Source: Novakomyces olei (Eukaryota > Ascomycota > Novakomycetes > Novakomycetales > Novakomycetaceae). Taken from it: a stretch of DNA of 64,000 nt. The notes beneath the pieces were generated by a model, which was given only the letters and a program-made list of their open reading frames with translations, made no database searches and was not told where the DNA came from. Both the position numbers and the translations under genes were made by a program. Shown here in pieces: positions 533-64,000 of the stretch (position 1 is its first letter; every line of letters starts with the position of its first letter). The stretch lies in assembly GCA_016906335.1 (NCBI GenBank), contig JADEYG010000003.1, positions 1,364,001-1,428,000 on the forward strand, given 5' to 3'.

Positions 533-850
533 TGTCATATCAATATGACATAATTCCGTTTTCATCGGAGATAATCCGTTCGATTGCGGATTATTTCCAA
601 TTCCGGAATTTTAGTTAGCCACTTTGTGGCTTAGACAGTCTTTTCCGTAGTTGTTTCTATTTTTAGTTATAGTTAGTTAGTTCCAGCAAGGATAAAAGGA
701 GGCCCGTTCGCACTTTTATCCGACGCTGATTATCGACCGTGTTGACCGTGTAAACCGTTTTAAGTACTATTACCTTCCATTTGGCTTCCCACCACAGTTG
801 CCGTGAAAGCAACACAGCCGTACCCAAACCAAACAAAGAAAAACACAACA
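533..850 (+). repeat. G1 5' LTR
   Basis: A 318-bp LTR starting TG and ending CA. Its first 18 bases form a palindrome (TGTCAT...ATGACA). A TATA-like GATAAAAGG lies near 688-696. A second inverted repeat (ATAATCCG/CGGATTAT) lies near 570-590, and GCCAC/GTGGC near 618-630. A short leader starting GTATAA follows at once, as in G2. Confidence 0.95.
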
Positions 851-888
851 GTATAATCAGCCCACGTTGTGGTGCCGAGCCGTTCGTC

Positions 889-1899
889 ATGGAAGGTGTC
901 GACATGAATCGTCTGAACCAATTTGTTGAGGAAACAACAGCGAAGTTACAGCTACTGGAGCATGAGAACATGATGCTGAAGGTCAAATTGGAAAACGATC
1001 AGGAGAGTCGACATGCGACGTTCAACCGGGAGCCCAAGTTAGCCCCGCCACCTTTGTTTTTTGGCGAGAGAGCTAAGGCTCGTGAATTTATCACCCAAGT
1101 GAAAATGATAACCGACGCACTACCCTCGAGATACGGATCGGACCGCCAGAAGGTCACGTTTGCAGCAACCTATTTGCGAGGAACCGCGTTCAGGTGGATT
1201 GAGCCTCACATCCTAGGGGAAAACGAAGGAATACTCAACGATTTTGAGACGTTTTGTGATTCATTCCTACAGATGTTTGGTGATCGAGATATTAGAAAGC
1301 AGGCGCAGAAGCAAATTCGCAATCTGAAGCAGTCTGGAGCTGTTGCTCAGTACGCAGCCGAGTTTGACAGACTCAGAGCGAACTTTAGCTGGAACGAAGA
1401 AGCGTTGATTTCGCAGTACTACGAGGGCCTTAGCGACAGGCTTAAGGACGAATTGGCAAGAACGACAGAGCCTAGTACCTTGCGAGAGATGATCGAGATG
1501 ACGATCAGTATTGATAATCGTCTATTTGAGAGACGTAAAGAGAGACAGAGAACAAGTTACGAACCGAGAACGTATTATGAGCCGAGATTTACGGGCAGAA
1601 GTAACCAGACGACTGCACCGATGGAAATTGATTTGGCGGTTGCCGGTGCCAGAGGAGCAGGCAGACCCGCAAGAGAGTACAAGACGAATGACAGAGAGCA
1701 CAAGACGAATTACAGAGACGCGAGAGACGCGAGAGAAAGAGAGAGAAGTCACGACAACAGAAACGTACAGTGTTATAATTGCCAGAAGAAAGGGCATATT
1801 GCAAAAGAGTGCAAAGAAAAGAGAATTCCGTTTGTAAGCCGTCAAGCTGCAATGACGACGAACGATTTGAGCGACGACTCGGGAAAAGATTTCGCCTAG
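889..1899 (+). CDS. gag: Gag of G1
   Basis: A 336-residue capsid/nucleocapsid protein. I chose the ATG at 889 because it lies 38 bases after the LTR; the upstream in-frame codons fall in the LTR. Residues about 5-35 look like a coiled coil. Residues about 50-200 are a Retrotrans_gag-type capsid region containing YLRGTAFRWIEPH and QYYEGLSDRLKDELA. An Arg/Glu-rich linker follows, then one CCHC zinc knuckle, CYNCQKKGHIAKEC, near residue 294. The C-terminus overlaps the pol frame, and a GGGAAAA heptamer sits 12 bases before the stop. The G2 and G4 Gag proteins are clear homologues. The reading frame is intact. Confidence 0.9.
   Translation: MEGVDMNRLNQFVEETTAKLQLLEHENMMLKVKLENDQESRHATFNREPKLAPPPLFFGERAKAREFITQVKMITDALPSRYGSDRQKVTFAATYLRGTAFRWIEPHILGENEGILNDFETFCDSFLQMFGDRDIRKQAQKQIRNLKQSGAVAQYAAEFDRLRANFSWNEEALISQYYEGLSDRLKDELARTTEPSTLREMIEMTISIDNRLFERRKERQRTSYEPRTYYEPRFTGRSNQTTAPMEIDLAVAGARGAGRPAREYKTNDREHKTNYRDARDARERERSHDNRNVQCYNCQKKGHIAKECKEKRIPFVSRQAAMTTNDLSDDSGKDFA
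1881..1887 (+). other. Putative -1 ribosomal frameshift site of G1
   Basis: The heptamer GGGAAAA lies in the register G GGA AAA relative to gag, immediately before the gag stop. The pol frame is the -1 frame and is open across this point. This fits the X XXY YYZ rule for simultaneous -1 slippage. Use of the site is inferred. Confidence 0.6.
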
Positions 1900-4800
1900 A
1901 GAAAGAAGTGGTTTCTCTAGGACAAGCTGAATTAAAAGCCACTGAAAGACGACGAGATACTGGAGTGAGACATTTGGAGACGGACGTCCAAATAAATGGG
2001 CTTAGACGAAAAGCTTTAGTGGATTCAGGAGCGAACCTAAATTTCATACACCCGCGATTAATATTGAATTTGAATCTAAAGACAGAAAGACTTCAGAGAC
2101 CAATTGTGATACAGGTTGTCGATGGCCGAAGCCTGGCATCAGGACCCGTGGCGAGAACTACGAAGATTATGGACATGAAGATAGGAAATTGTGTTACACC
2201 TACGAGATTTTATGTGGCAGATATTGGCCAGAGAGACATCATTTTGGGTATTCAATGGTTGCAAGAGAACAATCCCATTATTGATTGGAAGAATCGTACA
2301 TTATCATTTGAAGTACAGAATACAGAGCAAGATTATGCAGACGCAACTTGCACGCAGACGAGCGGATTAAAGGCAAGTTTTGCGGATGAAACACAAGTGC
2401 CGCAAGAGAGCGGATTTTTTCCCGAAAAACCGGAAAGCGATAACGTTGGAAAAATCCCCCAAATTCCTACAGAATATGAAGACTATCGTGATGTATTCGA
2501 TGAGAGACGAGCAGACGTATTGCCACCGCATCGAAGCTATGATCATGAAATAATATTGGAAAAGGGATCGAAGGTACCTTTTGGACCTATCTACAACATA
2601 TCTGCAGACGAGCAGAGAGAGTTGCTCAAGTATATTGAGGAAAACTTGTATAAGAAATTCATCAGAAAATCGAAGTCACCAGCAGGAGCACCCATATTGT
2701 TTGTGAAAAAGAAGGACGGGAGCTTACGACTCTGCGTGGACTACAGAGCACTAAATGCGATTACAGTCAAGAATCGATATCCTATTCCGAGAATTGATGG
2801 ACTCATCGATAAGTTAAGTGGAAGTCGTATATTTACTAAGATCGATTTGAAAGGCGCTTACAATCTGATACGTATTCGAAATGGCGACGAGTGGAAAACC
2901 GCATTTCGTACAAGATACGGACATTTTGAATACAGAGTGATGCCTTTTGGACTCACTAATGCGCCAGCAACTTTCCAAAACCTTATGAATGACGTATTCC
3001 GAGATATCCTGGATAGATATGTCTTAGTCTATCTGGATGACATCCTCATTTACTCGAGAAATAAAGAGGAACATATACAGCATGCCAGAGAAGTGTTTAA
3101 GCGAGTACGAGCAAGACAGCTGTTCGCAAAGGCAAGCAAATGTGAATTTCACAAGACAAAAGTGGAATTTCTAGGATTTATTATATCGACAGAAGGAGTT
3201 TCGATGAGCTCGGACAAGACCAAGCCTATTAATGACTGGCCCACACCAAAGAACGTCAAGGACGTACAGTCGTTTCTTGGACTATGCAATTATTACAGAA
3301 GATTCATTCCTGGATTTTCAAAGATTGTGACACCAATAACAAGTCTATTAAAGAAGGATAATACATTTAGCTGGGGAGCAGACCAAGAGAAGGCTTTTGA
3401 ACAATTGAAAGACAGCTTTCGAAGAGACGTTACGTTAAAGCATTACGATCCAGAACTCGAGTGCATTGTCGAAACAGATGCCTCAGATTTCGCTATAGGA
3501 GCCGTACTGTTACAAGAACAAGGAGGCGAAAAGAGACCGATTGCTTTTATAAGCAGAAAGCTTGAACCAGCCGAGATCAATTATGATATACACGATAAAG
3601 AGTTACTTGCGATTGTCTATGCATTCGGAATATGGAGACACTATTTGCAAGGACATCCAAAGCCAATTATTGTATATACTGATCATCGGAACTTGCAGAC
3701 GTTTACTACGACAAAGAAACTATCGAGGAGACAAGCACGTTGGTCGGAACTATTAGGAGAATATGAATTTAAGATTCGATACAGAAAAGGATCAGGAAAC
3801 GCAGCAGCAGACGCGTTGAGCAGAAGAGTTGATTTTAATAATGTTGACTTGAAGGAATACTAAATTGATAAGCCGTTGATCGATCCAGCAAGATTTGATC
3901 TAAGTATGACAACAGTCGAACATATAGATACGGACGAGAAGCTGGAAATATTGCGAGCATGCCATGATCACCCATTAGCAGGACATTTTGGACAACATCG
4001 AACGTTAGAACTAGTACAGCGTTTTAAGAAGTGGAAAAATATGTCGTAGGATGTTAGGGATTACGTAGCATCATGTGCGACGTGCTGGAGAAGCAAGAAA
4101 TCGAGGAAGAAACCTGCAGGATTATTAAACCCGCTACAAGTACCGTCAAGACCATGGGAATCTGTTTCAATGGATTTTATCGTTAAACTTCCCGAATCCG
4201 AAGGTTTTGATTCAATACTAGTGGTTGTTGACAGATTTTCTAAAATGTGTCATTTAATCCCTTGCAAAGAATCATCCACAGCAACGGATGTAGCGAGACT
4301 ATACATTGACAAGGTATTTAAACACCACGGACTACCAAATGAAATCGTATCAGACAGAGATCCAAAGTTTTTGAGCAAATTTTGGCAAGGCATGTACCAG
4401 AACCTTGGAGTTAAGCTATTGCATTCGACGAGTCACCACCCACAAACAGATGGACAGACTGAGAGAACCAATCAAACACTCGAGCAATACTTAAGAGCCT
4501 ATGTCAATTACAACCAAAACAATTGGAGCAAGCTATTGTCTTTTGCGGAATTCGCAATGAACAATGCAACAAACAGCAGTACAAGACTATCACCGTTTTA
4601 CATTTGCAACGGTTATCATCCAAAGGGAATACAGATCACAACTTCCCAGAGTGACAATCCAGCAGCAAATCAAACTACACGAGACTGGAACGAATTATTT
4701 GAACGAGTCAAAAGCAACATTCAATCTGCAAATAAAGTATCAAAGCTACATTATGACAAAAAGAAAACAGCAGCAAATACATTTGTGCCTGGAGACAACG

Positions 4801-5207
4801 TGTGGATCCAGAGAAGACACATACACAGCGAGCGACCATCGGATAAACTAGATCATACAAGACTGGGACCTTTCAAAATTATTGAGGCTATAGGAAATAG
4901 CGCTTACAGGATTGAGCTTCCCCAACATATCAAAATACACAACGTATTTAATGAAACTTTACTGGAAAAATGTTTACCAGACCGATTTCAGAGAGACCCA
5001 ACAGATGTACACGTTCCCGATGTTCTAGTGGACACGACTGAATACGAAGTCGATTACATTTGCAATCATACAGGCAGAGGCCGAAACCGCAAATATTTAG
5101 TGCATTGGAAAGGTTATGGAGTACAAGACCGTACATGGGAACCTTTTGGAAACCTGACAAATGCAACAGAGGCAGTTAAAGCATACTGGAATAACCAAAA
5201 ACATTGA
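1888..5207 (+). pseudogene. pol: Pol region of G1 (protease, RT, RNase H, integrase, chromodomain), broken
   Basis: Fossil Ty3/Gypsy polyprotein region, in the -1 frame relative to gag. In order it holds an aspartic protease (LVDSGANLNFIHP, near 2015-2055), reverse transcriptase (VDYRALNAI near 2735, YLDDILIYS near 3030), RNase H (ETDASDFAIGA near 3475; TDHRNLQTF near 3680), an integrase zinc-binding region (near 3960-4100), an integrase core (VVVDRFSKMCHLI, SDRDPKFLSKFW, TDGQTERTNQTLEQY) and a chromodomain (EYEVDYICNHTGRGRNRKYL, then WKGY and RTWEPFGN, near 5040-5190). The chromodomain is the hallmark of chromoviruses, where it directs integration to marked chromatin. About one break is visible. 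Confidence 0.9.
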
Positions 5208-5458: not shown

Positions 5459-6514
5459 ATGAACAATAACGTTCTTGAAGAGGGGAGGCAGCGCAAGCGA
5501 TACGCGCTGGACAGCGGTAAGTTCCAATGTGTTGTGTGCACTCGACAGTACACCCGAAAGCACGACCGCGACCGTCACATGGAGATGCACGACCCTGATC
5601 TGGTTGGCTGGGCCGAAGAGTGGTTTAAGGAGGAAGACCGACCGAACAAACAGTTGGCGAGAGACATTTTTACTCTGCTCGCATCGGTTGATTTCGAAAA
5701 GCTCAAGCCCCATAGCGAAAGGTTTGTTTTCGATTGCAAGCCAACATGGGCACATGTCTTCGAGGACCTTTTGGAGGATGAGACAGCTTTGTTTATGGAC
5801 ATACGGGTTCGCGTGCATGATGACGAAATACGAATCGCCCAGGTCCTCGCATCATTCGTCCAGCCGGGGACTACGAGATACGCAGCCTACAATTTGAGGC
5901 CGATCAGCGAATACGGTTTATCGTCAGTGGGCCTTCGCGCGCAAGGATTGTTGAAGGAAAGTTATTTGAATGAACTTGGATGGAACGGGACTGCCACACC
6001 GTCGGGCACAATCACGGACGTTCACGTGGATCCGGTTCTGTGCGAAACCGTCATTGTGGGAATTCTTGGGAGAAAGCTGGTCTTTACGTGGGCCAATTCA
6101 GAGGCCAATTTACAGAAGTTGGAGCCCTATCATCGCAGGCCAGGAGACTTTATATTACCTGAAGCTCTTCGCAGCCTCGAAGGGTTAAAGATTGGAGTAC
6201 TAGAGCCGGGAGTTATTTTTCGATTAAGGTCTGGGACACCACATGCGGTGATGTCTTTTGAGAAAGCAGTCTTGATGGGTTACTATATTGCTAGCGAAGA
6301 CCAGGCTTTATACCGAGTGGCAAAGTGGGAATCGTCGTGGGCTAGTACACAGTTCCCAACTATTCGAGACGAGGTAAAGGAAGATCACGAACGTTGCTTG
6401 ATGGCATATCGTGATTGGGCAGGAGAAGACAGCAGGAGACAAGGCTGGTACAAAAAGGCACAGGCGGCAGTGTCTACGTTTTTGGAAGAGGAGGATAGTG
6501 TCATATCAATATGA
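5459..6514 (+). CDS. C2H2 zinc-finger / JmjC-domain protein carried by G1
   Basis: A 351-residue accessory protein of the element. I chose the ATG at 5459 because the in-frame codons upstream encode a low-complexity AT-rich stretch and a TATA box sits just before. Residues 24-44 form a classical C2H2 finger (C24, C27, H40, H44). Residues about 110-285 look like a JmjC fold: TPSGTITDVHVDP gives the HxD iron ligands (H189, D191), ILGRKLVFTW has a possible 2-oxoglutarate-binding Lys (K206), and SGTPHAV gives the distal His (H262). Known JmjC enzymes are Fe(II)/2-oxoglutarate dioxygenases, including histone demethylases and protein hydroxylases. The substrate here is unknown. Homologues lie in G2 and G4 at the same place. 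The last codons run through the polypurine tract into the 3' LTR. Confidence 0.8.
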   Translation: MNNNVLEEGRQRKRYALDSGKFQCVVCTRQYTRKHDRDRHMEMHDPDLVGWAEEWFKEEDRPNKQLARDIFTLLASVDFEKLKPHSERFVFDCKPTWAHVFEDLLEDETALFMDIRVRVHDDEIRIAQVLASFVQPGTTRYAAYNLRPISEYGLSSVGLRAQGLLKESYLNELGWNGTATPSGTITDVHVDPVLCETVIVGILGRKLVFTWANSEANLQKLEPYHRRPGDFILPEALRSLEGLKIGVLEPGVIFRLRSGTPHAVMSFEKAVLMGYYIASEDQALYRVAKWESSWASTQFPTIRDEVKEDHERCLMAYRDWAGEDSRRQGWYKKAQAAVSTFLEEEDSVISI

Positions 6515-6816
6515 CATAATTCCGTTTTTATCGGAGATAATCCGTTCGATTGCGGATTATTTCCAATTCCGGAATTTTAGTTAGCCACTTTGTGGCTTAG
6601 ACAGTCTTTTCCGTAGTTGTTTCTATTTTTAGTTATAGTTAGTTAGTTCCAGCAAGGATAAAAGGAGGCCCGTTCGCACTTTTATCCGACGCTGATTATC
6701 GACCGTGTTGACCGTGTAAACCGTTTTAAGTACTATTACCTTCCATTTGGCTTCCCACCACAGTTGCCGTGAAAGCAACACAGCCGTACCCAAACCAAAC
6801 AAAGAAAAACACAACA
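6499..6816 (+). repeat. G1 3' LTR
   Basis: A 318-bp copy of the 5' LTR with one visible base difference (C versus T) about 30 bases from its start. The purine run GAAGAGGAGGATAG just before it is the likely polypurine tract. Confidence 0.95.
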
Positions 6817-28874: not shown

Positions 28875-29580
28875 TGTCATGATCCCCGCCTCGCGTGAAC
28901 CACGACAGCGAACGACGCCTGAAGTCCTGTAGCGCCAAAGGCGATGACTTCAGGCTAGATAGATCTAAATAGCTCGCGCGAGGTAATGTTGGACATTACT
29001 CGCGCGAAGCGCGTAAGTGGCCTAGCTCGCGAGCAGGTTGGACCTGGCTCGCGCGAAGCAGGTCCACGTCCATGCCCGCGCGACGTAGGCACGTCGCGGC
29101 GCATGACAGTAGTAGTAGCGATCGCGCATCGCTACGAAGCTAGATAGATCGATCCATAGAGTTCATAGCTCGCCACCGCTTTCCCAATGCGGATGGTCTG
29201 GGACCATCGCATTGAGATCGTGGTGGGATGAGGCTTAGGCCGCGAAGTGGCTAAGCGAGCCGCTAAGCCTCATAGGATAGTCTACATAGTCGCCCATGGA
29301 GAGAACTCTCTCCACGGGCTTATAATCTCAAAGTTGCTACATAACCTTGTAGCAGGTAAGCTTTAGAGAAGCGCCGTCGCCTTTTCAAGGACAACGTCCT
29401 TTTCCTTTTCCTTAGTTCTTGCGCCGGGCGCAAGTCTACGTTCCCGTTTCTCGGTACTCGCTTCGCGCGGTACCCGATTGAACTTCCTTTGTCGAGCGGT
29501 CTCGCAAAGGACAGTCCGTGTTCGCCTGTAGCGACACGCGAGTTTACACCGCGGTGCTCCCCTCTAAGGGCCACCTTACA
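28875..29580 (+). repeat. G3 5' LTR, hairpin-rich
   Basis: A 706-bp LTR, TGTCATGATC...ACCTTACA. It contains a series of short inverted repeats, for example at 28918-28954, 28974-29007, 29185-29214, 29293-29318, 29417-29433 and 29486-29510. A TATA-like TTATAATC lies near 29320. Confidence 0.95.
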
Positions 29581-29750
29581 CTATTATAAGCCCGTGAGCT
29601 CGTCTAAGCTACAGATTTACACGGCGTTGAAAGGTGTCACGCACGGAGGCGTACACAAATTTCGATTTACAAGTTTTATTTCGCACTAAGTTGTTGCGAC
29701 GAAGGGTGCTTTGCTACGGTTTAGCAGCACAAACGAATTATTGAATTACG

Positions 29751-30698
29751 ATGAGTCAAGAGGACTTGAACGCGTTTCTGCAGACGCTGCAGGCGCAGAT
29801 CGCGTCGCTCCAAGAGGAGCGCGTTAAGGACAAATCGGTTATTGAAGGCCTTCGCCAGGAAATGGGATCCCGGGGATCTCGACGATCAGGAGTCAGCGAA
29901 GGGCCAAGCATTTCGAAGCCGGATACATTCAGAGGTGATCGCAGATCGGTGGATACTTTCCTTGCACAGGTTCGCTTATACGTGAGACTCAAGCCACATG
30001 AGTTTCGCAACGACGAAGCGAAGGTCCTGTTTGCGGTATCTTATCTGCGCGGTGCCGCTTTTGCGTGGTTTGAACCCCACTTGCGCGACCACGATGAAAG
30101 CCTAATTACCAGTGACTTTGCCCTGTTTTGCGACGAGCTCTCCACGACATTTGGGAGCGTCGACCGCATTAGTCAGGCTGAGCGGGAGCTAGCATTGCTC
30201 AAACAGCGAGGATCTGTTGCTGAGTATACTTCGCGTTTTCAGCAGATCACTTCGCACTTGGATTTTAGCGATCACAGTTTACGCTACGAATATTATCAAG
30301 GATTGAAAGATCGAATTAAGGACGAATTATCTCGGTTGGAAAAATCGCGTACATTGTCAGACTTAATTGAGAAGTCTGTACGCGTGGACGAAAGGTTGTC
30401 GGATCGTTACTACGAAAGCGCTAGCCGTACGAACGCCAAGGGCGCTTCAGGCTATAGGGGCGCGACGATCGCGAACAAAGGATACACTCCCATGGAGGTA
30501 GATGCTACCAGTTACGAAAAGAAGAGCATTACCAGCGACGAACGCCAGCGTCGAAAGAAAGAGAACAGATGTTTTACGTGCGGACGCGAAGGTCATCGCG
30601 CACGTGATTGCAAACAGAAGCAACGCAATTATGAGCAACGCATCTCGGTGGTTATGGACAGTATCACGGAACCGGGAAAAGCGAGAGCCCAGGTCTAA
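29751..30698 (+). CDS. gag: Gag of G3
   Basis: A 315-residue capsid/nucleocapsid protein starting MSQEDLNAFLQTLQAQIA. Residues about 8-35 are a predicted coiled coil. Residues about 55-210 are a Retrotrans_gag-type capsid region (YLRGAAFAWFEPHLRD, YYQGLKDRIKDELS). One CCHC knuckle, CFTCGREGHRARDC, uses C274, C277, H282 and C287. The last 60 or so bases overlap the open pol frame, and a slippery heptamer lies in the overlap. The frame is intact in both G3 and G3b. Confidence 0.93.
   Translation: MSQEDLNAFLQTLQAQIASLQEERVKDKSVIEGLRQEMGSRGSRRSGVSEGPSISKPDTFRGDRRSVDTFLAQVRLYVRLKPHEFRNDEAKVLFAVSYLRGAAFAWFEPHLRDHDESLITSDFALFCDELSTTFGSVDRISQAERELALLKQRGSVAEYTSRFQQITSHLDFSDHSLRYEYYQGLKDRIKDELSRLEKSRTLSDLIEKSVRVDERLSDRYYESASRTNAKGASGYRGATIANKGYTPMEVDATSYEKKSITSDERQRRKKENRCFTCGREGHRARDCKQKQRNYEQRISVVMDSITEPGKARAQV
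30674..30680 (+). other. Putative -1 frameshift site of G3
   Basis: GGGAAAA in the register G GGA AAA relative to gag, 18 bases before the end of the gag frame. The pol (-1) frame is open from about 30635. The same heptamer is at 1881-1887 in the unrelated family G1. Use is inferred. Confidence 0.6.
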
Positions 30699-30742
30699 AA
30701 GAAAGGCCTGATCTGGGCGTTAATGACACGAGGCTTTCGGAG

Positions 30743-33700
30743 GTGATGTCAGTGGTACCCGAACCTGACAGAGGAATACATCTCACAGTTACTGCAAATT
30801 TGAGAACTAGCAAGGGCCAGCTGGACGCGAAGGCGCTGATCGACTCAGGCGCGACGTCGAATTTTATCAGCCAGAGCCTTGCTACGAGAAGCATAATCGA
30901 TATAACGAAGAAGGCGAAGATTGAGCCACTACGAGTTGTGGATGGAAGAGCGATTCGCACCGGAGGTGTTCGCTTCCAGACTGAAAACATGGAGGTCACC
31001 ATAGGCGAACATCGCGAGACTATGATGTTTAACGTGATACCGCTCTCTGGACACGACGTTATTTTAGGAAAGCCATGGCTCGACAAACATGAGCCAAGGA
31101 TTGCATGGAGACGTGCAAAAGTCGAATTCGAGTCTTCCTATTGCTTAGCAAACTGCCTCAAGAAGCCCGAGGCACAAGACGAACCATCGCAAATCAGTGC
31201 GACGGAATTTGCTAAGCTATCGCGAGGCAACGACTCGGGATTGCTGTGCGTATACGCGACCGACGCTAAAAGCGAGGACAAAAACGTCGCTATACCTCCC
31301 GAGTATGCAGACTTTCGCGATCTTTTTGAGAAAAGAAATGCAGACATTCTACCACAGCATCAGGCGTGGGATCACGCAATACCGTTGACAGAAGGCGCGA
31401 AGCCGCCGTTCGGGCCTATATATCCTCTGGCCGAACGCGAGCTACAAACACTACGCGACTACATTAAAGACAATCTAGCGAAGGGATTCATTAGGCCGTC
31501 TTCATCGCCCGCGGGGGCTCCAATTCTTTTTGTGAAAAAGAAGGACGGTTCGCTGAGACTGTGCGTAGATTATCGCGGGCTAAACGCGGTAACTGTCAAA
31601 AATCGCTATGCGCTGCCGCTCATATCGGAGCTATTGGATCGCATTCGTCAGTCGACGATATTTACGCGATTAGATCTCCGTGGCGCGTATAATCTTGTCC
31701 GTATACGCGAAGGCGACGAGTGGAAAACCGCCTTCCGTACGCGTTATGGACATTACGAATATCAGGTTATGCCTTTCGGGCTCACGAACGCCCCGGCATC
31801 TTTCCAAGCTCTTGCGAACGACACATTACGCGATTGTCTGGATCGCTTTGCTGTTGTATACTTGGACGACATCTTGATCTATTCGGACACCGAGGAGGAG
31901 CATGTGACGCATGTTCGCGAAGTACTGAAACGACTTCGCAAAGCAAACTTATTTGTGAAACTAGAGAAATGCGAGTTCCACACAGACACGACAGAGTTCC
32001 TAGGCTTTGTTGTCTCTACGAAAGGAGTGTCTATGGAGAAAGCGAAAGTTGATTCTATTGAGACATGGCCTGAACCCAAGAACGCGAAAGACGTTATGTC
32101 GTTCTTAGGCCTATCAAATTACTATCGCAGATTTATTGCAAACTACAGCAAAATTACCATCCCTCTCACCCGCTTACTGAAGAAGGATGCGCAGTTTAAT
32201 TTCTCCAAGGAGTGCATTGACTCTTTCCAAACTCTGAAGAACGCTTTTCTGGGTGCGCCGATCCTTGCGCATTTCGACCCGCAGAAGCCAAGTTATTTGG
32301 AAACCGACGCATCGGACTTCGCGATCGGTGGGATTCTCTCGCAGAAAGACAACAGCGACGAAATGAGACCCATCGCGTTCTACTCGCGAAAAATGACTAG
32401 CGCGGAAGTAAACTATGATATCTACGACAAAGAGCTGTTAGCTATTGTCGCATGTCTTCGCGAATGGCGAGTTTACCTGGAGAGTCCGTTACATCGCACT
32501 ACAATTTATACGGATCACCGCAATCTCATGTACTTTCTTACAGCAAGAGTACTTAGCCGTAGACAGATGCGATGGTCGCAATTGATCGCTTCCTATGATT
32601 TCGTTATTGAATACCGTGCTGGAAAGCTAAATCACAAAGCGGATGCCTTGTCTAGGCGAAGCGATTATGTCGGCGATAAGGAACAGGAGAAACCAGAGCG
32701 AACTATGGCACTATTGGACAGATCGCACTTCCTGTTCGCGACCGTAGAAGATACAGGCATTGATGATCAGATTAAACAATGTTACGGCAAAGACAAGACT
32801 TGCAAGGTTGTCATGGAGGACCTCGGCAAGCAGCCAGTGTCGGAACATCTGCGAAACTACAGTATAAACGAAAAGGGTCTTCTAACGTTTTCGGGTTTGC
32901 TATACATCCCAAACGACAATCGTTTGCGATTAGCTATACTACAGACATGCCATGATTCGCATGTCGCGGGTCACCCTGGCCAGGCCAAAACGTTGGACTT
33001 AGTCATGCGAAACTACTATTGGCCACGCATGCGAAAAGAGATATTTAGCTACGTCGAGTCGTGCGATACTTGTGCGCGAAACAAGCCTTCGCGACATGCA
33101 CCGTATGGACTACTACACCCACTGAGAGTACCAGCGAGACCCTGGGAAAGTATCTCAATGGACTTCATTGTGAAATTACCGGAGTCGCGCGATGCGATTA
33201 CACAAAAAACCTACGACTCCATATGGGTAATCACCTGTCGATTTACGAAAATCGGAATATTTATACCAATACGCGAATCTATTAAGGCTACTGAGCTAGC
33301 TTTGATTTACGCCCATCGCGTATTTGCCAACTATGGCCTACCAGACGAAATAGTCTCTGACAGGGGTTCGGTATTTGTATCGCAGTTTACACGACACTTG
33401 CTTTCGCAATGCGATATACAGCAGAAGTTGTCTACCGCGTACCACCCACAGAGCGACGGCCAAACAGAGAGGCTTAACCAGATCTTAGAGCAATATCTGA
33501 GGATCTACAGCAACTATCAGCAAAGCAATTGGGTCAATTTGTTACCTTTTGCTCAATTCGCGTACAACAATTCAGAGCAGTCGTCTACAAAGACAACACC
33601 GTTTTACGCTTTTTACGGCTACAACCCGAAATGTCGCTTTACGATTTCATCTTCGCGACAATGCCCATCCGCGGATGAACGTATCGAATACCTACGGAAT

Positions 33701-34225
33701 CTACATCGCTTATTGAAAGTCGAAATCGAAAAGTCTCTCAGCGACCAGGCGCGCTTTGCAAATGAGCATCGCGTCGACAAAAGTTTTGCTATTGGCGATC
33801 AAGTCTGGCTAGTGCGAAAAAATATTAGCACTACGCGGCCATGCGATAAGCTGGATGCCAAGAAGCTGGGACCGTTTAGGATTATCGCACGCGTTGGTTT
33901 GCGTGCATATCGCTTGGAACTATCGAAGGCAATGCGTATACATCCTGTCTTCCACGCTTCATTGCTAGAGCGACATAACGCAGTGTCGCAGATCGCGCGA
34001 GAACAGATCGCGCCACCACCTCCAGTTATATTGGATGCTAACCCGGAATGGGAAGTCGAGCAAGTTCTAGACTCGCGCATCCGACGCAAGCAACTTCAAT
34101 ATTATGTGCATTGGAAAGGCTACGACGCCTCCGACCGCACGTGGGAGCCTGCGAAACATTTACACAACTGCATGGATTTGGTAAACGAATTCCACCGTGC
34201 ACACCCGAACAAACCTGGTTCTTAA
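30743..34225 (+). CDS. pol: Pol of G3 (protease, RT, RNase H, integrase, chromodomain)
   Basis: An open frame of 1160 residues from the first ATG. By -1 frameshifting it would be joined to Gag without using this ATG. It has an aspartic protease (ALIDSGATSNF, D34), RT ([11 protein letters not shown] near residue 272; YLDD at about 373-376), RNase H (ETDASDFAIGG near 519; TDHRNLMYF near 590), an integrase zinc-binding region (H...H near 735-745 and CDTC near 773-776), an integrase core (DFIVKLPESRD near 806, SDRGSVF near 870, TERLNQ near 907) and a chromodomain (LQYYVHWKGYDASDRTWEP, near 1120-1140). It copies element RNA and inserts the DNA, probably into chromatin read by the chromodomain. No break is visible. 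Confidence 0.93.
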   Translation: MMSVVPEPDRGIHLTVTANLRTSKGQLDAKALIDSGATSNFISQSLATRSIIDITKKAKIEPLRVVDGRAIRTGGVRFQTENMEVTIGEHRETMMFNVIPLSGHDVILGKPWLDKHEPRIAWRRAKVEFESSYCLANCLKKPEAQDEPSQISATEFAKLSRGNDSGLLCVYATDAKSEDKNVAIPPEYADFRDLFEKRNADILPQHQAWDHAIPLTEGAKPPFGPIYPLAERELQTLRDYIKDNLAKGFIRPSSSPAGAPILFVKKKDGSLRLCVDYRGLNAVTVKNRYALPLISELLDRIRQSTIFTRLDLRGAYNLVRIREGDEWKTAFRTRYGHYEYQVMPFGLTNAPASFQALANDTLRDCLDRFAVVYLDDILIYSDTEEEHVTHVREVLKRLRKANLFVKLEKCEFHTDTTEFLGFVVSTKGVSMEKAKVDSIETWPEPKNAKDVMSFLGLSNYYRRFIANYSKITIPLTRLLKKDAQFNFSKECIDSFQTLKNAFLGAPILAHFDPQKPSYLETDASDFAIGGILSQKDNSDEMRPIAFYSRKMTSAEVNYDIYDKELLAIVACLREWRVYLESPLHRTTIYTDHRNLMYFLTARVLSRRQMRWSQLIASYDFVIEYRAGKLNHKADALSRRSDYVGDKEQEKPERTMALLDRSHFLFATVEDTGIDDQIKQCYGKDKTCKVVMEDLGKQPVSEHLRNYSINEKGLLTFSGLLYIPNDNRLRLAILQTCHDSHVAGHPGQAKTLDLVMRNYYWPRMRKEIFSYVESCDTCARNKPSRHAPYGLLHPLRVPARPWESISMDFIVKLPESRDAITQKTYDSIWVITCRFTKIGIFIPIRESIKATELALIYAHRVFANYGLPDEIVSDRGSVFVSQFTRHLLSQCDIQQKLSTAYHPQSDGQTERLNQILEQYLRIYSNYQQSNWVNLLPFAQFAYNNSEQSSTKTTPFYAFYGYNPKCRFTISSSRQCPSADERIEYLRNLHRLLKVEIEKSLSDQARFANEHRVDKSFAIGDQVWLVRKNISTTRPCDKLDAKKLGPFRIIARVGLRAYRLELSKAMRIHPVFHASLLERHNAVSQIAREQIAPPPPVILDANPEWEVEQVLDSRIRRKQLQYYVHWKGYDASDRTWEPAKHLHNCMDLVNEFHRAHPNKPGS

Positions 34226-34452
34226 ATGGGAATGCTAAGCGAGCTCCCTATTCGGGCGACGACCTTCAACTTTCGTCACCCACGCGAAACTAAGACTCAA
34301 CTCTTAAAGTGATTTATTGATTTATTGATTATACCGCGATTATTATTGTTTAAATTATTACGAGAAAATTATACAAAAACATATTCAATTACTTGTCGAA
34401 CAAATAATATGGGACAACGCAAGGAGGAATGGCTGTTGAGTCACGCACACAA
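34226..34452. other. G3 3' non-coding gap between convergent genes
   Basis: AT-rich sequence between the end of pol and the end of the antisense accessory gene. It probably contains the 3' ends of both transcripts. Nothing else recognised. Confidence 0.5.
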
Positions 34453-34959
34453 TTACGGACGAGCGGCACGGAGCGAAAGAATCTCGCGCTCCAACGCACG
34501 GTTGCGGCGCTCGAGGCGAGCGATAGTCGCATCGCGCTGGGCCAGCGCACTCGAAACCGAACCGACGATCGAATTTGTTGACGGAGGACCGTCATCGGCA
34601 ATTACATGCACCTCGAATGGTGCCTGACGTCTTTCCTCCTGCGCTCGCTGTCGCGCGCGACGTCTTTCGCGGCGACGCTGCAGCTCCTCGCGCTCTCTCA
34701 CACGCTGTTCTTCACGCGCGGCAACAAGGCGCTCGTTCTCCTCATTGTCATGAAGAAAACGGCCTCCTTCGCAACGGGTGCGACGTGCCGCGCAGACCAT
34801 ACAGCGACGCACAAACGGTGCAGTGCCGAGAACGAAGCGGCACGGCAAAGAGTTTGCCACGCAATACTCGCAGGGCACGATAGCATCTCTGACATGAGCA
34901 AGCGACATGTTGTTGTTGATCCGGAACGCAGAGCGAAAATTCTTGTTTTGCATCCGCAA
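34453..34959 (-). CDS. Antisense accessory protein of G3 with a Zn(II)2Cys6-type cluster
   Basis: A 168-residue frame antisense to pol, between pol and the 3' LTR. Six cysteines (C30, C33, C40, C53, C56, C63) fit exactly CX2CX6CX12CX2CX6C, the spacing of the fungal binuclear zinc cluster, although the usual basic residues between the second and third cysteines are missing. Residues 72-112 are an Arg/Glu-rich predicted coiled coil, and residues 138-164 are a second heptad-like helix, which would suit dimer formation. A TATA box lies about 43-50 bases upstream. The frame is also open in G3b. I do not recognise the protein; a DNA- or RNA-binding regulator of the element is a guess. Confidence 0.65.
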   Translation of the reverse strand: MRMQNKNFRSAFRINNNMSLAHVRDAIVPCEYCVANSLPCRFVLGTAPFVRRCMVCAARRTRCEGGRFLHDNEENERLVAAREEQRVREREELQRRRERRRARQRAQEERRQAPFEVHVIADDGPPSTNSIVGSVSSALAQRDATIARLERRNRALEREILSLRAARP

Positions 34960-35001
34960 ATTACTTTATATTACTTAGATAGTTTTATTGCCGAAAGCGC
35001 A

Positions 35002-35009
35002 CTTATATA
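35002..35009 (-). promoter_or_regulatory. Candidate TATA box for the G3 antisense gene
   Basis: TATATAAG on the minus strand, 43 bases upstream of the first ATG of the accessory gene at 34959. It is conserved in G3b at 38154-38161. Confidence 0.5.
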
Positions 35010-35071
35010 GCAGTCTAGTAGCTAACGTGGTTTTCATAGGCGCGGAGACCTCGCCCTAGAAAGGGGGATAG

Positions 35072-35777
35072 TGTCATGATCCCCGCCTCGCGTGAACCAC
35101 GACAGCGAACGACGCCTGAAGTCCTGTAGCGCCAAAGGCGATGACTTCAGGCTAGATAGATCTAAATAGCTCGCGCGAGGTAATGTTGGACATTACTCGC
35201 GCGAAGCGCGTAAGTGGCCTAGCTCGCGAGCAGGTTGGACCTGGCTCGCGCGAAGCAGGTCCACGTCCATGCCCGCGCGACGTAGGCACGTCGCGGCGCA
35301 TGACAGTAGTAGTAGCGATCGCGCATCGCTACGAAGCTAGATAGATCGATCCATAGAGTTCATAGCTCGCCACCGCTTTCCCAATGCGGATGGTCTGGGA
35401 CCATCGCATTGAGATCGTGGTGGGATGAGGCTTAGGCCGCGAAGTGGCTAAGCGAGCCGCTAAGCCTCATAGGATAGTCTACATAGTCGCCCATGGAGAG
35501 AACTCTCTCCACGGGCTTATAATCTCAAAGTTGCTACATAACCTTGTAGCAGGTAAGCTTTAGAGAAGCGCCGTCGCCTTTTCAAGGACAACGTCCTTTT
35601 CCTTTTCCTTAGTTCTTGCGCCGGGCGCAAGTCTACGTTCCCGTTTCTCGGTACTCGCTTCGCGCGGTACCCGATTGAACTTCCTTTGTCGAGCGGTCTC
35701 GCAAAGGACAGTCCGTGTTCGCCTGTAGCGACACGCGAGTTTACACCGCGGTGCTCCCCTCTAAGGGCCACCTTACA
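35072..35777 (+). repeat. G3 3' LTR
   Basis: 706 bp, identical by eye to the 5' LTR. The polypurine tract AAAGGGGGA precedes it. Confidence 0.95.
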
Positions 35778-35986
35778 TCAACTGTATATCCGAAAATTCG
35801 TCTTTCACCGTAGGAGTACTTGCATTGCGAGGCTTTATAGTTCCATTAATCCAATCAATATCTGGATTGTGCTTCTGGAACCATGGTAACCCAAGGATGG
35901 CGTCGTTCTTGCCAATATTAGTGACAAGGAATGATTCTTCAGATACGAAACCTTGTACATCGACATGTAGATCCTTCGTCTTGATG
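35778..35986 (-). pseudogene. G5 piece: end of protease region
   Basis: On the minus strand it resembles the Gypsy segment after the protease active site (SFLVTNIGKNDAILG...WFQKHNPDIDW), comparable to FYVADIGQRDIILGIQWLQ in G1. It lies between G3 and a solo LTR. Bases 35982-35986 (TGATG) are the duplication of that LTR. Confidence 0.75.
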
Positions 35987-38090: not shown

Positions 38091-38153
38091 CTATCCCCCC
38101 TTTCTAGGGCGAGGTCTCCGCGCCTATGAAAACCACGTTAGCTACTAGACTGC

Positions 38154-38161
38154 TATATAAG
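38154..38161 (+). promoter_or_regulatory. Candidate TATA box for the G3b antisense gene
   Basis: TATATAAG, 48 bases before the ATG at 38210. Same position as in G3. Confidence 0.5.
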
Positions 38162-38209
38162 TGCGCTTTCGGCAATAAAACTATCTAAGTAATATAAAGT
38201 AATTCGCGG

Positions 38210-45462: not shown

Positions 45463-46494
45463 TTACTCCCCCTCTTCAAGGAGAGCCAATCCTGCTTTAG
45501 CGGCCAGTAAATGCTCTTCACTGCCGTTACCCCGTAACACCCATCTGGTGATTTCCTTCAAGCTGTTCTGATGATCTTCCGCGACTTGGAATCTCATGGC
45601 TAAGCTAGACTGTTTCGCCCAATTCGCTTCCCAGACGGTAAGCCTGCTCATGACCTTTGGAGTCTCCACCAGCGTATAACCCGTAATTGCGGCATCTGTC
45701 AAGGATATAACAGCATGTGGTGTTCCTCCAGGTAGCACAAAAACAGTTCCTGGCTTGACCTCGCCAATTCTGAGGCCTTTCAAACTCTTCAGGGCACTCG
45801 TTAACACAAAGTCACCAGGCTTTTGATGGTACTCCTCCGATGCTTTCAGCTCTTCGGGACCGTTATTCCACGCAAGTAGCAATTTCCATCCTAGCACTCC
45901 AACGATGACCTGTCGCGTGCACACAGAATCAATATGCACGTCCGTAATAGTTCCTGCGGGAGTAACTGTTCCCAACCAAGATCGTCCAACGATTCTCTTT
46001 CGTAGCTGACTCAATTTGTGCGGGCCACAAGACTTCAAGCCACTTGCACTTTCATGAGCCACATTGTAAACAGCGTATTTTGTTTTCAATTTGCCCATCC
46101 ACGATGCGACAACCTGAGATATGCGTACCTCGTCGTCATGAACACGAACTCTTGTATCCATAAAGTGTGCCGTTTTCGTCTCCATTACATCGTCAATCAC
46201 ATTTGGCCAATCGGGAGTTGTTGAGAAAGACTCCGAAATATCATCCTCAATTGGTTGCAAAATGTCGTATTCGTTGCGCGATAAATAAGCCAAGGTCTGG
46301 CGCGCAACGATGTTCTCCGTATTAGCGTTTTTCCACGCTTCCGCCCATTCTCGTAGCTTCTCCGGGTGCGAGGCTATATGTCGCTGTAGATCAAAGCTTC
46401 TCGTAAAGTGTCGCATGCAAACGTCGCACTCAAACTCTCCGCGATCTCGTTCGCCGCGCTTGCGCTTTTCCCCTCCTTCAACAGTTGCGGTCAT
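45463..46494 (-). CDS. C2H2 zinc-finger / JmjC-domain protein carried by G2
   Basis: 343 residues from the ATG at 46494; an upstream in-frame ATG at 46581 is less likely because the intervening codons are low-complexity. A C2H2 finger uses C23, C26, H39 and H43. The JmjC-like domain covers residues about 110-280: TPAGTITDVHID gives H187 and D189, VGVLGWKLLLAW has K204, and GGTPHAV gives H260. It aligns along its length with the G1 protein but is clearly diverged, so the two families have carried the gene for a long time. The stop codon lies directly against the 3' LTR, and the last codons (EEGE) are the purine tract GAAGAGGGGGAG. A histone or protein demethylase/hydroxylase is likely from the family; the substrate is unknown. 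Confidence 0.8.
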   Translation of the reverse strand: MTATVEGGEKRKRGERDRGEFECDVCMRHFTRSFDLQRHIASHPEKLREWAEAWKNANTENIVARQTLAYLSRNEYDILQPIEDDISESFSTTPDWPNVIDDVMETKTAHFMDTRVRVHDDEVRISQVVASWMGKLKTKYAVYNVAHESASGLKSCGPHKLSQLRKRIVGRSWLGTVTPAGTITDVHIDSVCTRQVIVGVLGWKLLLAWNNGPEELKASEEYHQKPGDFVLTSALKSLKGLRIGEVKPGTVFVLPGGTPHAVISLTDAAITGYTLVETPKVMSRLTVWEANWAKQSSLAMRFQVAEDHQNSLKEITRWVLRGNGSEEHLLAAKAGLALLEEGE

Positions 46495-46799: not shown

Positions 46800-49302
46800 T
46801 CAAGCAGCCCTAGTCTGCCTTTGCCAATATTGCGCTACTGCATCCTGCGCGTGTTGTAAATTTCCAATTGGCTCCCAGGTGCGATCGTGCTCGTCGTATC
46901 CTTTCCAATGTACTAGGTACTTGCGTCCTCTTCCTCGTCCTGAATGATCACATATATGATCAACTTCATATTCTGTAGTATCCGTTAGGACGTCTGGAAC
47001 ATCTAGATCTGTTGGATCTCGTTCATAGGGATCTGGAATATACTTTTCCAGTAGACTCTCGTTAATCACGTCATGTATCTTAATGTCTGGTGGCAATGCA
47101 ATTCTGTAAGCATGCTCGCCAATCCGTTCCTTAATCTCAAATGGTCCAAGCTTGGTGTGATCAAGCTTATTCGACGGTCTCTCGCTCTATATATGCTTCC
47201 GTCTAATCCATACTTTGTCTCCAATATTAAATTGCATTGACGGCAATTTCTTCACATCGTAATGTCTCTTCGAATTTGTATTTGCATTTTTAATATTTTG
47301 TTCAACTGTCCGAAATAGTCCTGTCCAGTCGACAACAAAATTGTTTGCCGTGGGGTTTTGACTCTTAGGTGTTTCGAAAGGTAGCCCTCTGGGGTTATAT
47401 CCGTTACACACATAGAATGGTGCGTACCGTGTGCTTGCGCTAATTGCGTTGTTCAGCGCAAATTCCGCAAATATCAGTAATTCTCTCCAATTGTCTTGAT
47501 TAAAGTTCAAGTATGACCTCAAGTACTGTTCTAGTGTCTGGTTGGCTCTTTCAGTTTGGCCATCGGTCTGCGGATGATGACTTGTTGAATGTAATAGTTT
47601 CACTCCAAGATTATTCGTTAAACTTGTCCAAAATTTGCTGACAAACTTGGGATCTCGGTCCGAAACAATATCTTCTGGTAGTCCATGATACTTAAATATA
47701 TTTTCCATATAGAGTGTAGCAAGCTCCATTGCTGTCGTTGACTCTCGACACTGTATTAGATGTGTCATCTTCGAAAATCGATCTACCACAACCATAATTG
47801 AATCATAATTGTCCGAAGGTGGTAGCTTTACAATAAAATCCATTGATACTGATTGCCATGGCCTTGTTGGTACTCGTAGCGGTTGTAAATATCCTGTTGG
47901 TTTGTGACGCGAAACCTTGCTTCGTATGCATGTTGCACACGAGTTCACATAATGTTTTATATCATTCTTCATATTTGGCCAATTAGCAACTCTTTTCGCT
48001 AATTCCAAAGTTCTCTGCTGTCCAAAATGTCCGGCCAGGGGATGGTCGTGACATGCTTGTAAAATCTTCTTCTTTTCCTCCAATGAAACATGATCAATCG
48101 TATTAACTTCAATTCTCTTTGGGTCGATCAAGGGCTTTGTGCTATGATAATCAATTCCTTTGACATCGTTCAAATCTGGACGTCTACTCAATGCGTCCGC
48201 TGCTGTATTCATAGACCCTTTTTGATAGCGTATTTTAAAATCGATTTGACTTAGTATTTCTGACCATCTTGCTTGCCGTCGTGACAGTTGTTTCGTAATA
48301 GTAAATGCTTGTAAATTCTTATGATCAGAGTACACAATTATCGGCTTAGGATGGCCTTGCAAGTAGTGTCTCCAAATCTTAAATGCGTAAACAATTGCCA
48401 ACAACTCTTTGTCGTGTATGTCATAATTCACTTCAGCTGGTTCTAGCTTTCGACTAATGAAAGCCACTGGTCTTCGAACTCCATCATAGTCTTGCATTAA
48501 TGCTGCTCCGATCGCAAAATCTGATGCATCTGTCTCCACAATGCATTCGCGCTCCTGATCGTAATGTTCCAATAGCACTTCGTCTCCGAATGCTCTCTTC
48601 AATGTTTCGAAAGCGATTTGTTGTTCGTCACTCCACGCAAATTCCGTTCTTTTACGCAAGAGTCTTGTAATAGGCAATACGATCTTGAAAAATCGTTGAT
48701 AAATCGCCTGTAATAGTTGCAGAGTCCTAAAAATGATTGTACTTCCTTGACATTTTTGGGTGCCGGCCATTCGTCAATTGGCCTCGTTTTGTCCTTGCAC
48801 ATAGACACTCCTTTGTCTGATAAAACATAACCAAGGAATTCGACTAGATTCCTATGGAATTCGCATTTGCTCTGCTTCGCAAATAACTTCTTCTCTCTTA
48901 GTCGTTTCAAGACTTCTTTAACATGACAAACATGTTATTCGTAGGTTTTGGAGTAGATCAGTATGTCGTCCAAATATACCAAAACGTAATCATCTAATGT
49001 GTCTCGAAATATATCGTTCATTAGATTCTGGAATGTTGCCGGTGCATTCGTTAATCCAAAAGGCATTACACGATACTCGAAATGTCCAAATCTTGTTCTG
49101 AATGCAGTTTTCCATTCATCTCCGCTTCGAATTCGTATAAGATTATATGCGCCTTTTAAGTCGATCTTCGTAAACACTTTGCTTCCACATAATTTGTCAA
49201 TCAACCCATCTATTCTTGGTATGGGATATCTGTTTTTCACTGTTATCGCGTTTAACGCTCGGTAATCAACACATAGTCTTAAGCTTCCATCTTTTTTTTT
49301 GA
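46800..49302 (-). pseudogene. Pol region of G2 from RT to chromodomain, broken
   Basis: Fossil Gypsy pol on the minus strand. It holds RT ([48 protein letters not shown] near 48965), RNase H (ETDASDFAIGAAL near 48520; YSDHKNLQAF near 48320), an integrase zinc-binding region (HDHPLAGHFGQQRT near 48035, CATCIRSK near 47935), an integrase core (VVVDRFSKMTHLIQC, SDRDPKFVSKFW, TDGQTERANQTLEQY) and a chromodomain (YEVDHICDHSGRGRGRKYLV, WKGYDEHDRTWEP, near 46840-46970). The upstream RT start lies beyond the solo LTR. Several breaks. Confidence 0.88.
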
Positions 49303-50425: not shown

Positions 50426-51464
50426 CTATCCTCCTCTTCCAAAAACGTAGACACTGCCGCCTGTGCCTTTTGTACCAGCCTTGTCTCCTGCTGTCTTCTC
50501 CTGCCCAATCACGATATGCCATCAAGCAACGTTCGTGATCTTCCTTTACCTCGTCTCGAATAGTTGGGAACTGTGTACTAGCCCACGACGATTCCCACTT
50601 TGCCACTCGGTATAAAGCCTGGTCTTCGCTAGCAATATAGTAACCCATCAAGACTGCTTTCTCAAAAGACATCACCGCATGTGGTGTCCCAGACCTTAAT
50701 CGAAAAATAACTCCCGGCTCTAGTACTCCAATCTTTAACCCTTCGAGGCTGCGAAGAGCTTCAGGTAATATAAAGTCTCCTGGCCTGCGATGATAGGGCT
50801 CCAACTTCTGTAAATTGGCCTCTGAATTGGCCCACGTAAAGACCAGCTTTCTCCCAAGAATTCCCACAATGACGGTTTCGCACAGAACCGGATCCACGTG
50901 AACGTCCGTGATTGTGCCCGACGGTGTGGCAGTCCCGTTCCATCCAAGTTCATTCAAATAACTTTCCTTCAACAATCCTTGCGCGCGAAGGCCCACTGAC
51001 GATAAACCGTATTCGCTGATCGGCCTCAAATTGTAGGCTGCGTATCTCGTAGTCCCCGGCTGGACGAATGATGCGAGGACCTGGGCGATTCGTATTTCGT
51101 CATCATGCACGCGAACCCGTATGTCCATAAACAAAGCTGTCTCATCCTCCAAAAGGTCCTCGAAGACATGTGCCCATGTTGGCTTGCAATCGAAAACAAA
51201 CCTTTCGCTATGGGGCTTGAGCTTTTCGAAATCAACCGATGCGAGCAGAGTAAAAATGTCTCTCGCCAACTGTTTGTTCGGTCGGTCTTCCTCCTTAAAC
51301 CACTCTTCGGCCCAGCCAACCAGATCAGGGTCGTGCATCTCCATGTGACGGTCGCGGTCGTGCTTTCGGGTGTACTGTCGAGTGCACACAACACATTGGA
51401 ACTTACCGCTGTCCAGCGCGTATCGCTTGCGCTGCCTCCCCTCTTCAAGAACGTTATTGTTCAT
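50340..51464 (-). CDS. C2H2 zinc-finger / JmjC-domain protein carried by G1b
   Basis: Copy of the G1 accessory gene, identical through the C2H2 finger (CVVCTRQYTRKHDRDRHMEMH) and the JmjC region (TPSGTITDVHVDP, ILGRKLVFTW, SGTPHAV). The frame runs into the 3' LTR; its C-terminal end is not the same as in G1. The start is the ATG at 51464, with a TATA box 58 bases upstream. Function as for G1. Confidence 0.75.
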   Translation of the reverse strand: MNNNVLEEGRQRKRYALDSGKFQCVVCTRQYTRKHDRDRHMEMHDPDLVGWAEEWFKEEDRPNKQLARDIFTLLASVDFEKLKPHSERFVFDCKPTWAHVFEDLLEDETALFMDIRVRVHDDEIRIAQVLASFVQPGTTRYAAYNLRPISEYGLSSVGLRAQGLLKESYLNELGWNGTATPSGTITDVHVDPVLCETVIVGILGRKLVFTWANSEANLQKLEPYHRRPGDFILPEALRSLEGLKIGVLEPGVIFRLRSGTPHAVMSFEKAVLMGYYIASEDQALYRVAKWESSWASTQFPTIRDEVKEDHERCLMAYRDWAGEDSRRQGWYKRHRRQCLRFWKRRIVSYQYDIIPFLSEIIRSIADYFQFRNFS

Positions 51465-63466: not shown

Positions 63467-64000
63467 ATGAGCGAGAATGAAGCTGTTGGGAATAAGCGCA
63501 AGCCCCGCAACTCGGGTGCTAACGAATGCGCTATATGTGGACTAAGGATATCGCGTATTCAAGACGTGCGAAGGCATGTGGCAACGTGCCACAAAGAAGG
63601 GACGGTTTTGCCGATTCAAGAATTTCGAGAGAACGCGAAGAAGTCGGATAACTTCACGGCTGGGGAGTCAACTTTAAGGGCCCTCCAACGTTTCCAGTCA
63701 GGAGCCAGGGCTCCGCTGACGGCCCCTTACCTAGGGATCACTATCGAACACATTATCTGCGACTTGTGGAAGAATGAAGGGTGCAACTTGATCAGCCCTA
63801 TTACGGGTTGCGAGGACGAGGATTACAAAGTGAGCAGGTTTTTCGCAGATTGGGCGGACCGACACGCAAATCCACTGGCGGCTTATAACATTGCGCCGAC
63901 AGAGGAAGGAACTTTGCTGCTGCTAGAGCCATTGCCAGAGCACAAAGGAAACAGTACGAATTGGTCGTCGACCATGACACCTGCCGGGACATTTACAAAC
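63467..64000 (+). CDS. C2H2 zinc-finger / JmjC-domain protein carried by G4, cut by the window edge
   Basis: The frame is open for 178 codons from the ATG at 63467 to the last base. A C2H2 finger uses C21, C24, H37 and H42. The rest aligns in layout with the G1 and G2 proteins: a helical middle region, then LAAYNIAP (compare YAAYNLRP in G1 and YAVYNVAH in G2), and STMTPAGTFTN at the very end, which is where G1 has ATPSGTITD just before its HxD iron ligands. The iron ligands themselves would lie beyond the window. It is much diverged from both others, making a third independent family with the gene. Confidence 0.75.
   Translation, partial: MSENEAVGNKRKPRNSGANECAICGLRISRIQDVRRHVATCHKEGTVLPIQEFRENAKKSDNFTAGESTLRALQRFQSGARAPLTAPYLGITIEHIICDLWKNEGCNLISPITGCEDEDYKVSRFFADWADRHANPLAAYNIAPTEEGTLLLLEPLPEHKGNSTNWSSTMTPAGTFTN

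Follow-up and report, generated by a model that had tools for sequence, protein, structure and literature searches.

We found that chromodomain retrotransposons in the genome of Novakomyces olei carry, downstream of the integrase and chromodomain, a gene for a protein with a C2H2 zinc finger and a JmjC-like domain. Judged by its sequence, this gene has a fixed place in the element, overlaps the polypurine tract, has descended together with pol and evolves under purifying selection. A conserved gene with a complete JmjC-type active site suggests that these elements bring their own tool against silencing. Our best reading, held with moderate confidence, is that it encodes a putative anti-silencing JmjC oxygenase with a C2H2 finger, acquired most likely once and retained since as a regular component of these retrotransposons. 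The original prediction had proposed such genes in three chromovirus families of the window (the whole 64-kb stretch of DNA that was analysed), with a role in the silent chromatin where the elements settle; as an overall interpretation it is partly supported.

The elements and parts that matter for the argument are as follows, in window coordinates.

533..850, plus strand: 5' LTR of G1, 318 nt, with ATATG before it
781..1899, plus strand: gag of G1 (Pfam)
1779..3863, plus strand: protease, reverse transcriptase (RT) and RNase H of G1 (Pfam)
4170..5207, plus strand: integrase core, SH3_Tf2-1 and chromodomain of G1 (Pfam)
5459..6514, plus strand: C2H2-JmjC gene of G1 (subfamily F1), open frame of 351 aa
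5522..5590, plus strand: C2H2 zinc finger, residues 22-44 of the G1 protein (weak Pfam zf-C2H2 match below the cut-off; invariant ligands)
6023..6244, plus strand: JmjC core of G1, H189-x-D191 ... K206 ... H262 (alignment and profile match)
6484..6494, plus strand: purine run in the last codons of the G1 gene, the polypurine tract by position
6499..6816, plus strand: 3' LTR of G1, with ATATG after it
28875..35777, plus strand: G3, a chromovirus without the C2H2-JmjC gene (contrast), with an inverted copy at 37384-44299
45463..46494, minus strand: C2H2-JmjC gene of G2 (subfamily F2), 343 aa, stop codon abutting the 3' LTR
46818..46970, minus strand: chromodomain of G2 (chromodomain match)
47187..48770, minus strand: RNase H and integrase of G2 (Pfam)
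50457..51464, minus strand: C2H2-JmjC gene of G1b, 99% to G1 over residues 1-336, frame changed beyond
58556..62938, plus strand: gag-pol with chromodomain of G4 (subfamily F5; Pfam)
63467..64000, plus strand: C2H2-JmjC gene of G4, open frame cut by the window edge

The G1 insertion is complete: its LTRs differ by 1 mismatch in 318 nt, and the ATATG on both flanks is a 5-nt target site duplication. Its gag, its protease-RT-RNase H and its integrase-SH3-chromodomain lie in separate frames, and the last 16 nt of the C2H2-JmjC frame are inside the 3' LTR. Upstream of the gene, both G1 and G4 gave Pfam matches to gag, protease, RT, RNase H, integrase, SH3_Tf2-1 and Chromo; with Chromo, rve and SH3_Tf2-1 together and LTRs found, these are chromoviruses (Ty3/Gypsy). 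G2 has its RT in broken frames, and G1b, a near-identical copy of G1, is nested inside it.

The three open frames singled out at the start (5459-6514, 45463-46494 and 63467-64000) are real and mutually related. In pairwise alignments, the G1 and G2 proteins were 42% identical over 318 aa (E 4e-88), and the truncated G4 piece matched G1 with E 4e-9 and G2 with E 8e-11. G4 had been said to keep the layout up to the window edge, and it does; past the edge the gene is intact and complete (locus L021, 333 aa from the ATG), with HID and the distal His kept. G1b had also been listed as a carrier; its gene is a 99% copy of G1 over residues 1-336, after which the frame changes. Neither window copy of G3 matched the gene, and a scan downstream of a same-family G3 copy (L048) found no gene remnant.

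At the genome level, the position after a chromodomain integrase, read at first from the window elements, was upheld. Among 81 chromodomain matches, we set aside five as host genes: the Clr4-like and HP1-like ones, recognised by the domains next to them, two in tandem that share a frame, and one by judgement. The gene lay less than 1 kb downstream on the same strand in 26 of the 76 element chromodomains, and upstream in none (0/76). Seen from the gene, a chromodomain lay at this position for 21 of 23 matches of at least 800 nt; of the two exceptions, one is the continuation of a match that has it. For the remaining 50 element chromodomains, some of them fragments, the gene was absent within 1 kb. 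Chromoviruses with and without the gene share nests, also in this window.

The 3' end of the gene is built into the element. In five of seven subfamilies (F2-F6) the frame ends directly at the 3' LTR, with a polypurine-type purine run making up its final codons, as in the junction GAAGAGGGGGAGTAA followed directly by TGTCAT; in F7 the frame stops shortly before the polypurine tract. The second LTR copy begins at the junction base, within 3 nt, in F2, F4, F5 and F6, and for F3 and F7 the later part of the LTR was confirmed, the examined stretch beginning inside the upstream LTR. We considered a passenger host gene and dropped it: a passenger would not be expected at such a position relative to the LTR and the tract, and therefore the gene belongs to the element.

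Upstream of the gene, TATA-like sites were found at -61 to -88 in F1, F3, F4 and F6 (4/7), a raw count in an A+T-rich stretch. The splice-donor pattern GT[AG][AT]GT had no match in the 700 nt upstream of the seven genes. By eye, the sequence ATTACTTA recurs in the 300 nt before the gene in six of seven subfamilies (F1, F2 and F4-F7; not F3).

We searched the genome (14.34 Mb, 15 contigs) with the G1 protein and obtained at least 46 matches, some of them pieces of one copy. At least seven diverged subfamilies keep an intact frame: F1 (G1), F2 (G2), F3, F4, F5 (G4), F6 and F7; F8 is represented by remnants only (L009 and L014). F1 moved recently, to judge by five matches, each on a different contig, whose proteins are 100% identical. 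After merging by hand, 16 of 38 loci lay less than 60 kb from a contig end, and the other 22 were grouped or beside other chromodomain matches; we infer that these clusters are subtelomeres and centromeres.

Outside this genome, a 5.8-billion-protein set yielded no relatives, either for the single protein P0001 (E <= 0.001) or for the seven-row alignment (E <= 0.01), in a search that needs shared exact words and may omit near relatives. With G1 pol, all 8000 scored candidates from the protein set passed E 0.001 (at least 8000). In viral contigs, 24 stretches fitted the pattern and none was confirmed. Together these are weak evidence that the gene is absent elsewhere.

To place the carriers, we built RT trees with F1-F7, gene-less elements and 16 outside chromoviruses. 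With the outside rows, F1-F7 and the gene-less X2 formed one clade (99/96), apart from the gene-less G3, X1, X3 and X4; without them, X2 joined G3, X1, X3 and X4 (84/84). AU tests did not reject a single clade of gene-bearing elements (p 0.253 and 0.51). X2 (L056, C2:1680900-1687600) keeps the tract and the LTR, with about 430 nt of mostly low-complexity sequence at the gene position; possibly it lost the gene by deletion or branched off before the capture.

The pairs F1-F2, F4-F7 and F5-F6 are common to the RT and JmjC trees of the seven subfamilies, with support of 86/86 for F1-F2 in the RT tree (where the F2 row is 43% filled) and 88/89 for F4-F7 in the JmjC tree. Because the two trees share these pairs, one capture followed by joint descent with pol is likelier than three. 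Three independent captures were dropped, given the shared pairs and the one RT clade. Thus, of the suggestion that three different families carry the gene, the diverged versions are real, and extend to at least seven subfamilies, and their independence is not borne out.

Between subfamilies, the JmjC protein is 24-40% identical, gag 41-49% (five subfamilies) and RT 60-81%. The JmjC protein therefore changes faster than gag and RT, which would fit a component facing host defence; alternatively, the faster change may reflect weaker constraint outside the core. Over the 21 pairs, JmjC and RT identity had a rank correlation of 0.36 (p 0.11), and this weak correlation counts against tight coupling.

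A dN/dS well below 1 had been named as support for the prediction, and five within-subfamily pairs agree with it: 0.27 for F3 against L020, 0.18 for F4 against L025, and 0.17, 0.17 and 0.24 for F5 against L024, L030 and L029, the last two pairs being partial. Fisher tests on three pairs gave p 8e-7, 1e-5 and 4e-5. Three further pairs, too close for a ratio, had 2, 2 and 0 changes, all four nonsynonymous. Between subfamilies (6 of 21 pairs), identity was 0.54-0.63 at second codon positions and 0.28-0.35 at third positions, with synonymous sites saturated or nearly so. As far as codons and residues can tell, purifying selection spares the metal, cosubstrate and zinc sites.

At the protein level, we aligned one representative per subfamily (n = 7). 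Of 313 gap-free columns, 31 are invariant in all seven, including the finger ligands C24, C27, H40 and H44 and the JmjC residues T186, H189, D191, K206 and H262; for random columns, invariance of all nine has P = 3e-10, the nine having been named after the alignment was seen. The iron triad HxD...H is present in all representatives, which confirms H189, D191 and H262 (G1 numbering) as first pointed out in G1 and G2, and so are the 2-oxoglutarate-type K206 (+15 of HxD) and T186 (-3). Decayed copies lose the site: L009 has YLD in place of HxD, and L013 a Tyr in place of the distal His. Just N-terminal of the finger, the G1 protein has a basic RQRKR stretch.

The assignment to JmjC depends on how the search is done. 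The Pfam JmjC model (PF02373) matched none of the seven single sequences over the cut-off, and its six places in the genome are all other than the C2H2-JmjC genes; single-sequence scans gave weak matches only, to C2H2 and cupins (Cupin_1 E 0.0035, Cupin_2, Cupin_8). Pfam alone would have rejected JmjC, and the signal appears with the family profile. The JmjC-like domain without the finger, searched as a profile against solved structures (PDB), matched KDM2A (E 3e-6), C. elegans KDM7 (1e-5), JHDM1A (1e-5), JHDM1D/KDM7 (1.4e-4) and PHF8 (9e-4), and in the KDM2A alignments shown HxD, K and H line up with the profile. The noise level of this search is given by an unrelated leucine-rich protein (E 1.2e-3) and a cupin (1.7e-3).

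Six host proteins, five with JmjC and one Clr4-like, were also compared with the profile. The KDM2-like L034, which has Pfam JmjC and a Jumonji helical domain, stands out (E 4e-7 at the PDB search-space size; hhalign probability 96.8%), and L033 is weak (E 11; 23%). Hence the JmjC similarity expected at the outset is found with the family profile, against KDM2A, KDM7, PHF8 and the host KDM2-like protein, and not by Pfam with single sequences.

The element protein is like KDM2/JHDM1 and KDM7/PHF8, its best profile matches, in the HxD...K...H core, the T at -3 and the K at +15. JmjC demethylases have a Lys at +13-15 and a Ser/Thr at -3 of HxD, and the FBXL10/11 and Phf2/8 proteins a tyrosine at +6-8 (PMC2453528). 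It is unlike them at +8, where the seven members have I, I, L, I, I, V and I, with no Tyr at +6 or +7 either. No PHD, CXXC, F-box or Jumonji helical domain was significant in the seven members by Pfam (one lists PHD_P300 at E 0.029), and unlike KDM2/7 the protein has one C2H2 finger and is retrotransposon-encoded. By sequence features we class it as a JmjC-type oxygenase nearest KDM2/7, and not as a KDM2/7 member, because K at +15 and T at -3 fit but the +8 Tyr is absent.

The host has genes for the silencing that such a protein could oppose. One Clr4/SUV39-like protein combines a chromodomain with Pre-SET and SET, an HP1-like frame has a chromo shadow and just upstream of it lies a chromodomain match, and the Piwi domain gave one match (Argonaute-type). 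DNA_methylase had no match in the host genome. The F1-F7 element chromodomains have Y or F, W and Y at the places that we take, from HP1, to be the aromatic cage. Fission yeast is not alone in having such machinery: H3K9 methylation and an HP1 protein were reported in Lipomyces starkeyi, another yeast (PMC7397231). A DNA demethylase was considered as well and dropped: the nearest profiles are histone lysine demethylases, and the host is without a DNA_methylase match.

Under the reading of an anti-silencing oxygenase, one chromodomain retrotransposon lineage would have acquired the C2H2-JmjC gene, most likely once. The finger and the basic N-terminal stretch would bring the protein into the nucleus and onto DNA, which is probably that of the element. 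The JmjC domain would remove or prevent a repressive methyl mark on lysine; H3K9me is the likeliest candidate, followed by H3K36me. As an outcome, elements in Clr4/HP1/RNAi-type heterochromatin would still be transcribed. The protein would act much as Epe1 or VANC does, with a retrotransposon as the carrier of its gene. Here we infer the nuclear entry, the DNA target, the substrate, the activity and the benefit to the element. A more specific form of it was proposed originally, in which the chromodomain integrase as reader and the C2H2-JmjC demethylase as eraser would act on the same mark, settling the element in H3K9-methylated chromatin and undoing the mark locally for expression; we hold this pairing as tentative.

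It is also conceivable, if unlikely, that the protein is a true JmjC oxygenase with a substrate other than a histone mark, for instance a protein of the element itself (Gag, integrase), RNA, or a factor of the host. The loss of the +8 tyrosine in all seven members would fit, and JmjC hydroxylases acting on other substrates are known. Moreover, orchid Gypsy elements carry an AlkB-type 2-oxoglutarate oxygenase with in vitro demethylase activity on m6A RNA (PMC9289625). However, the closest profiles are histone lysine demethylases, the finger and the basic stretch point to DNA and the nucleus, and the host has H3K9-type machinery.

A role in integration, with the protein loosening H3K9me target chromatin so that the chromodomain integrase inserts, seems quite improbable to us. 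Despite the constant neighbourhood of gene and chromodomain, and the 16 of 38 loci near contig ends with the remainder in groups, the gene is separate from pol and gene-less chromoviruses share the same nests.

We doubt even more that the protein is a non-catalytic scaffold or activator whose JmjC fold serves only to bind proteins of chromatin, like Epe1 in its JmjC-independent role: the tested Fe(II) and 2-oxoglutarate residues are all invariant though the subfamilies are 24-40% identical. For blocking ectopic heterochromatin, Epe1 can largely do without the iron site (PMC6576747) and several JmjC proteins act without catalysis (PMC4687429), but Epe1 is without the second His (PMC2453528), which the element proteins keep. 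Finally, a generic cupin or a chance profile match deserves almost no credence, since the weak Pfam cupins and the leucine-rich and cupin matches of the profile search are set against a KDM2A match 400-fold better than noise, with HxD, K and H aligned, and a host KDM2-like protein that stands out from five other host proteins.

For an anti-silencing oxygenase, the nearest working model is, by analogy, Epe1 of fission yeast. Epe1 is placed in the Jhd1 subgroup, with the second His absent (PMC2453528); JmjC-dependent H3K9me removal is described in cells, with no activity demonstrated in vitro (PMC6576747).

Other mobile elements offer partial parallels. The Gypsy elements of the orchid Phalaenopsis are likewise LTR retrotransposons with a captured 2-oxoglutarate oxygenase and an HxD...H motif, but their enzyme is AlkB-like and acts on m6A RNA, in plants and in 25-kb elements (PMC9289625); the words 'JmjC' and 'jumonji' have no occurrence in that text. 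The TET/JBP dioxygenases of fungal DNA transposons and Helitrons are also transposon-encoded and proposed to counter silencing; they differ in acting on DNA bases and in belonging to DNA transposons (PMC12730594), and our host has no DNA_methylase match. According to that source, no retrotransposon was found with TET/JBP, and SET methyltransferase genes are cited in DNA transposons. VANC of Arabidopsis VANDAL is likewise an element-encoded protein that lifts silencing, with relatives that evolve to different targets, but it causes loss of DNA methylation and no JmjC domain is named in the abstract (PMC5735166); Vandal families are MuDR DNA transposons, not retroelements (PMC12730594). As accessory domains of retrotransposons, PMC6338049 names the chromodomain and a DnaQ-like exonuclease.

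Among the titles listed by our searches of an open-access library, none named a JmjC gene in a retrotransposon. We see the gene as one for a transposon-borne chromatin-type oxygenase like those already described, but of another family, in a retroelement and next to a chromodomain. The anti-silencing weapons of transposons found in print (VANC, TET/JBP, orchid AlkB) act on DNA or RNA modification. If our reading is true, the arms race extends to histone marks, in a host with RNAi/H3K9-type genes and no DNA_methylase match. With about 340 aa, the C2H2-JmjC protein is a compact candidate eraser for fission yeast assays, and the related gene-less elements of the same genome are a natural comparison.

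Some further observations concern the surrounding sequence. The remnant L009 (C2:50254-51223) has G1-like and then F8-like gene stretches in one frame, a mosaic that is due to recombination between subfamilies or to nested decay. At L030 (1-969, minus strand), near the start of contig C15, a long ORF contains several Cys/His pairs; we presume that it resembles fungal subtelomeric C2H2 proteins next to RecQ helicases. The two G3 copies (window 28875-44299) form inverted arms of 6193 nt, 100% complementary and about 3 kb apart; the pair is a recent inverted duplication or a double insertion. A run of GGAGTGGCT 9-mers at window 7721-7961 adjoins the fragment into which G1 inserted, presumably copia-type by its look, and related sequence is also near 18578 and 23059. 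A short palindrome, TGTCA...TGACA, opens the LTRs of F1, F2, F3 and X2, and was seen at window 533-560 and 45440-45462 and at the LTR starts in L011 and L056.
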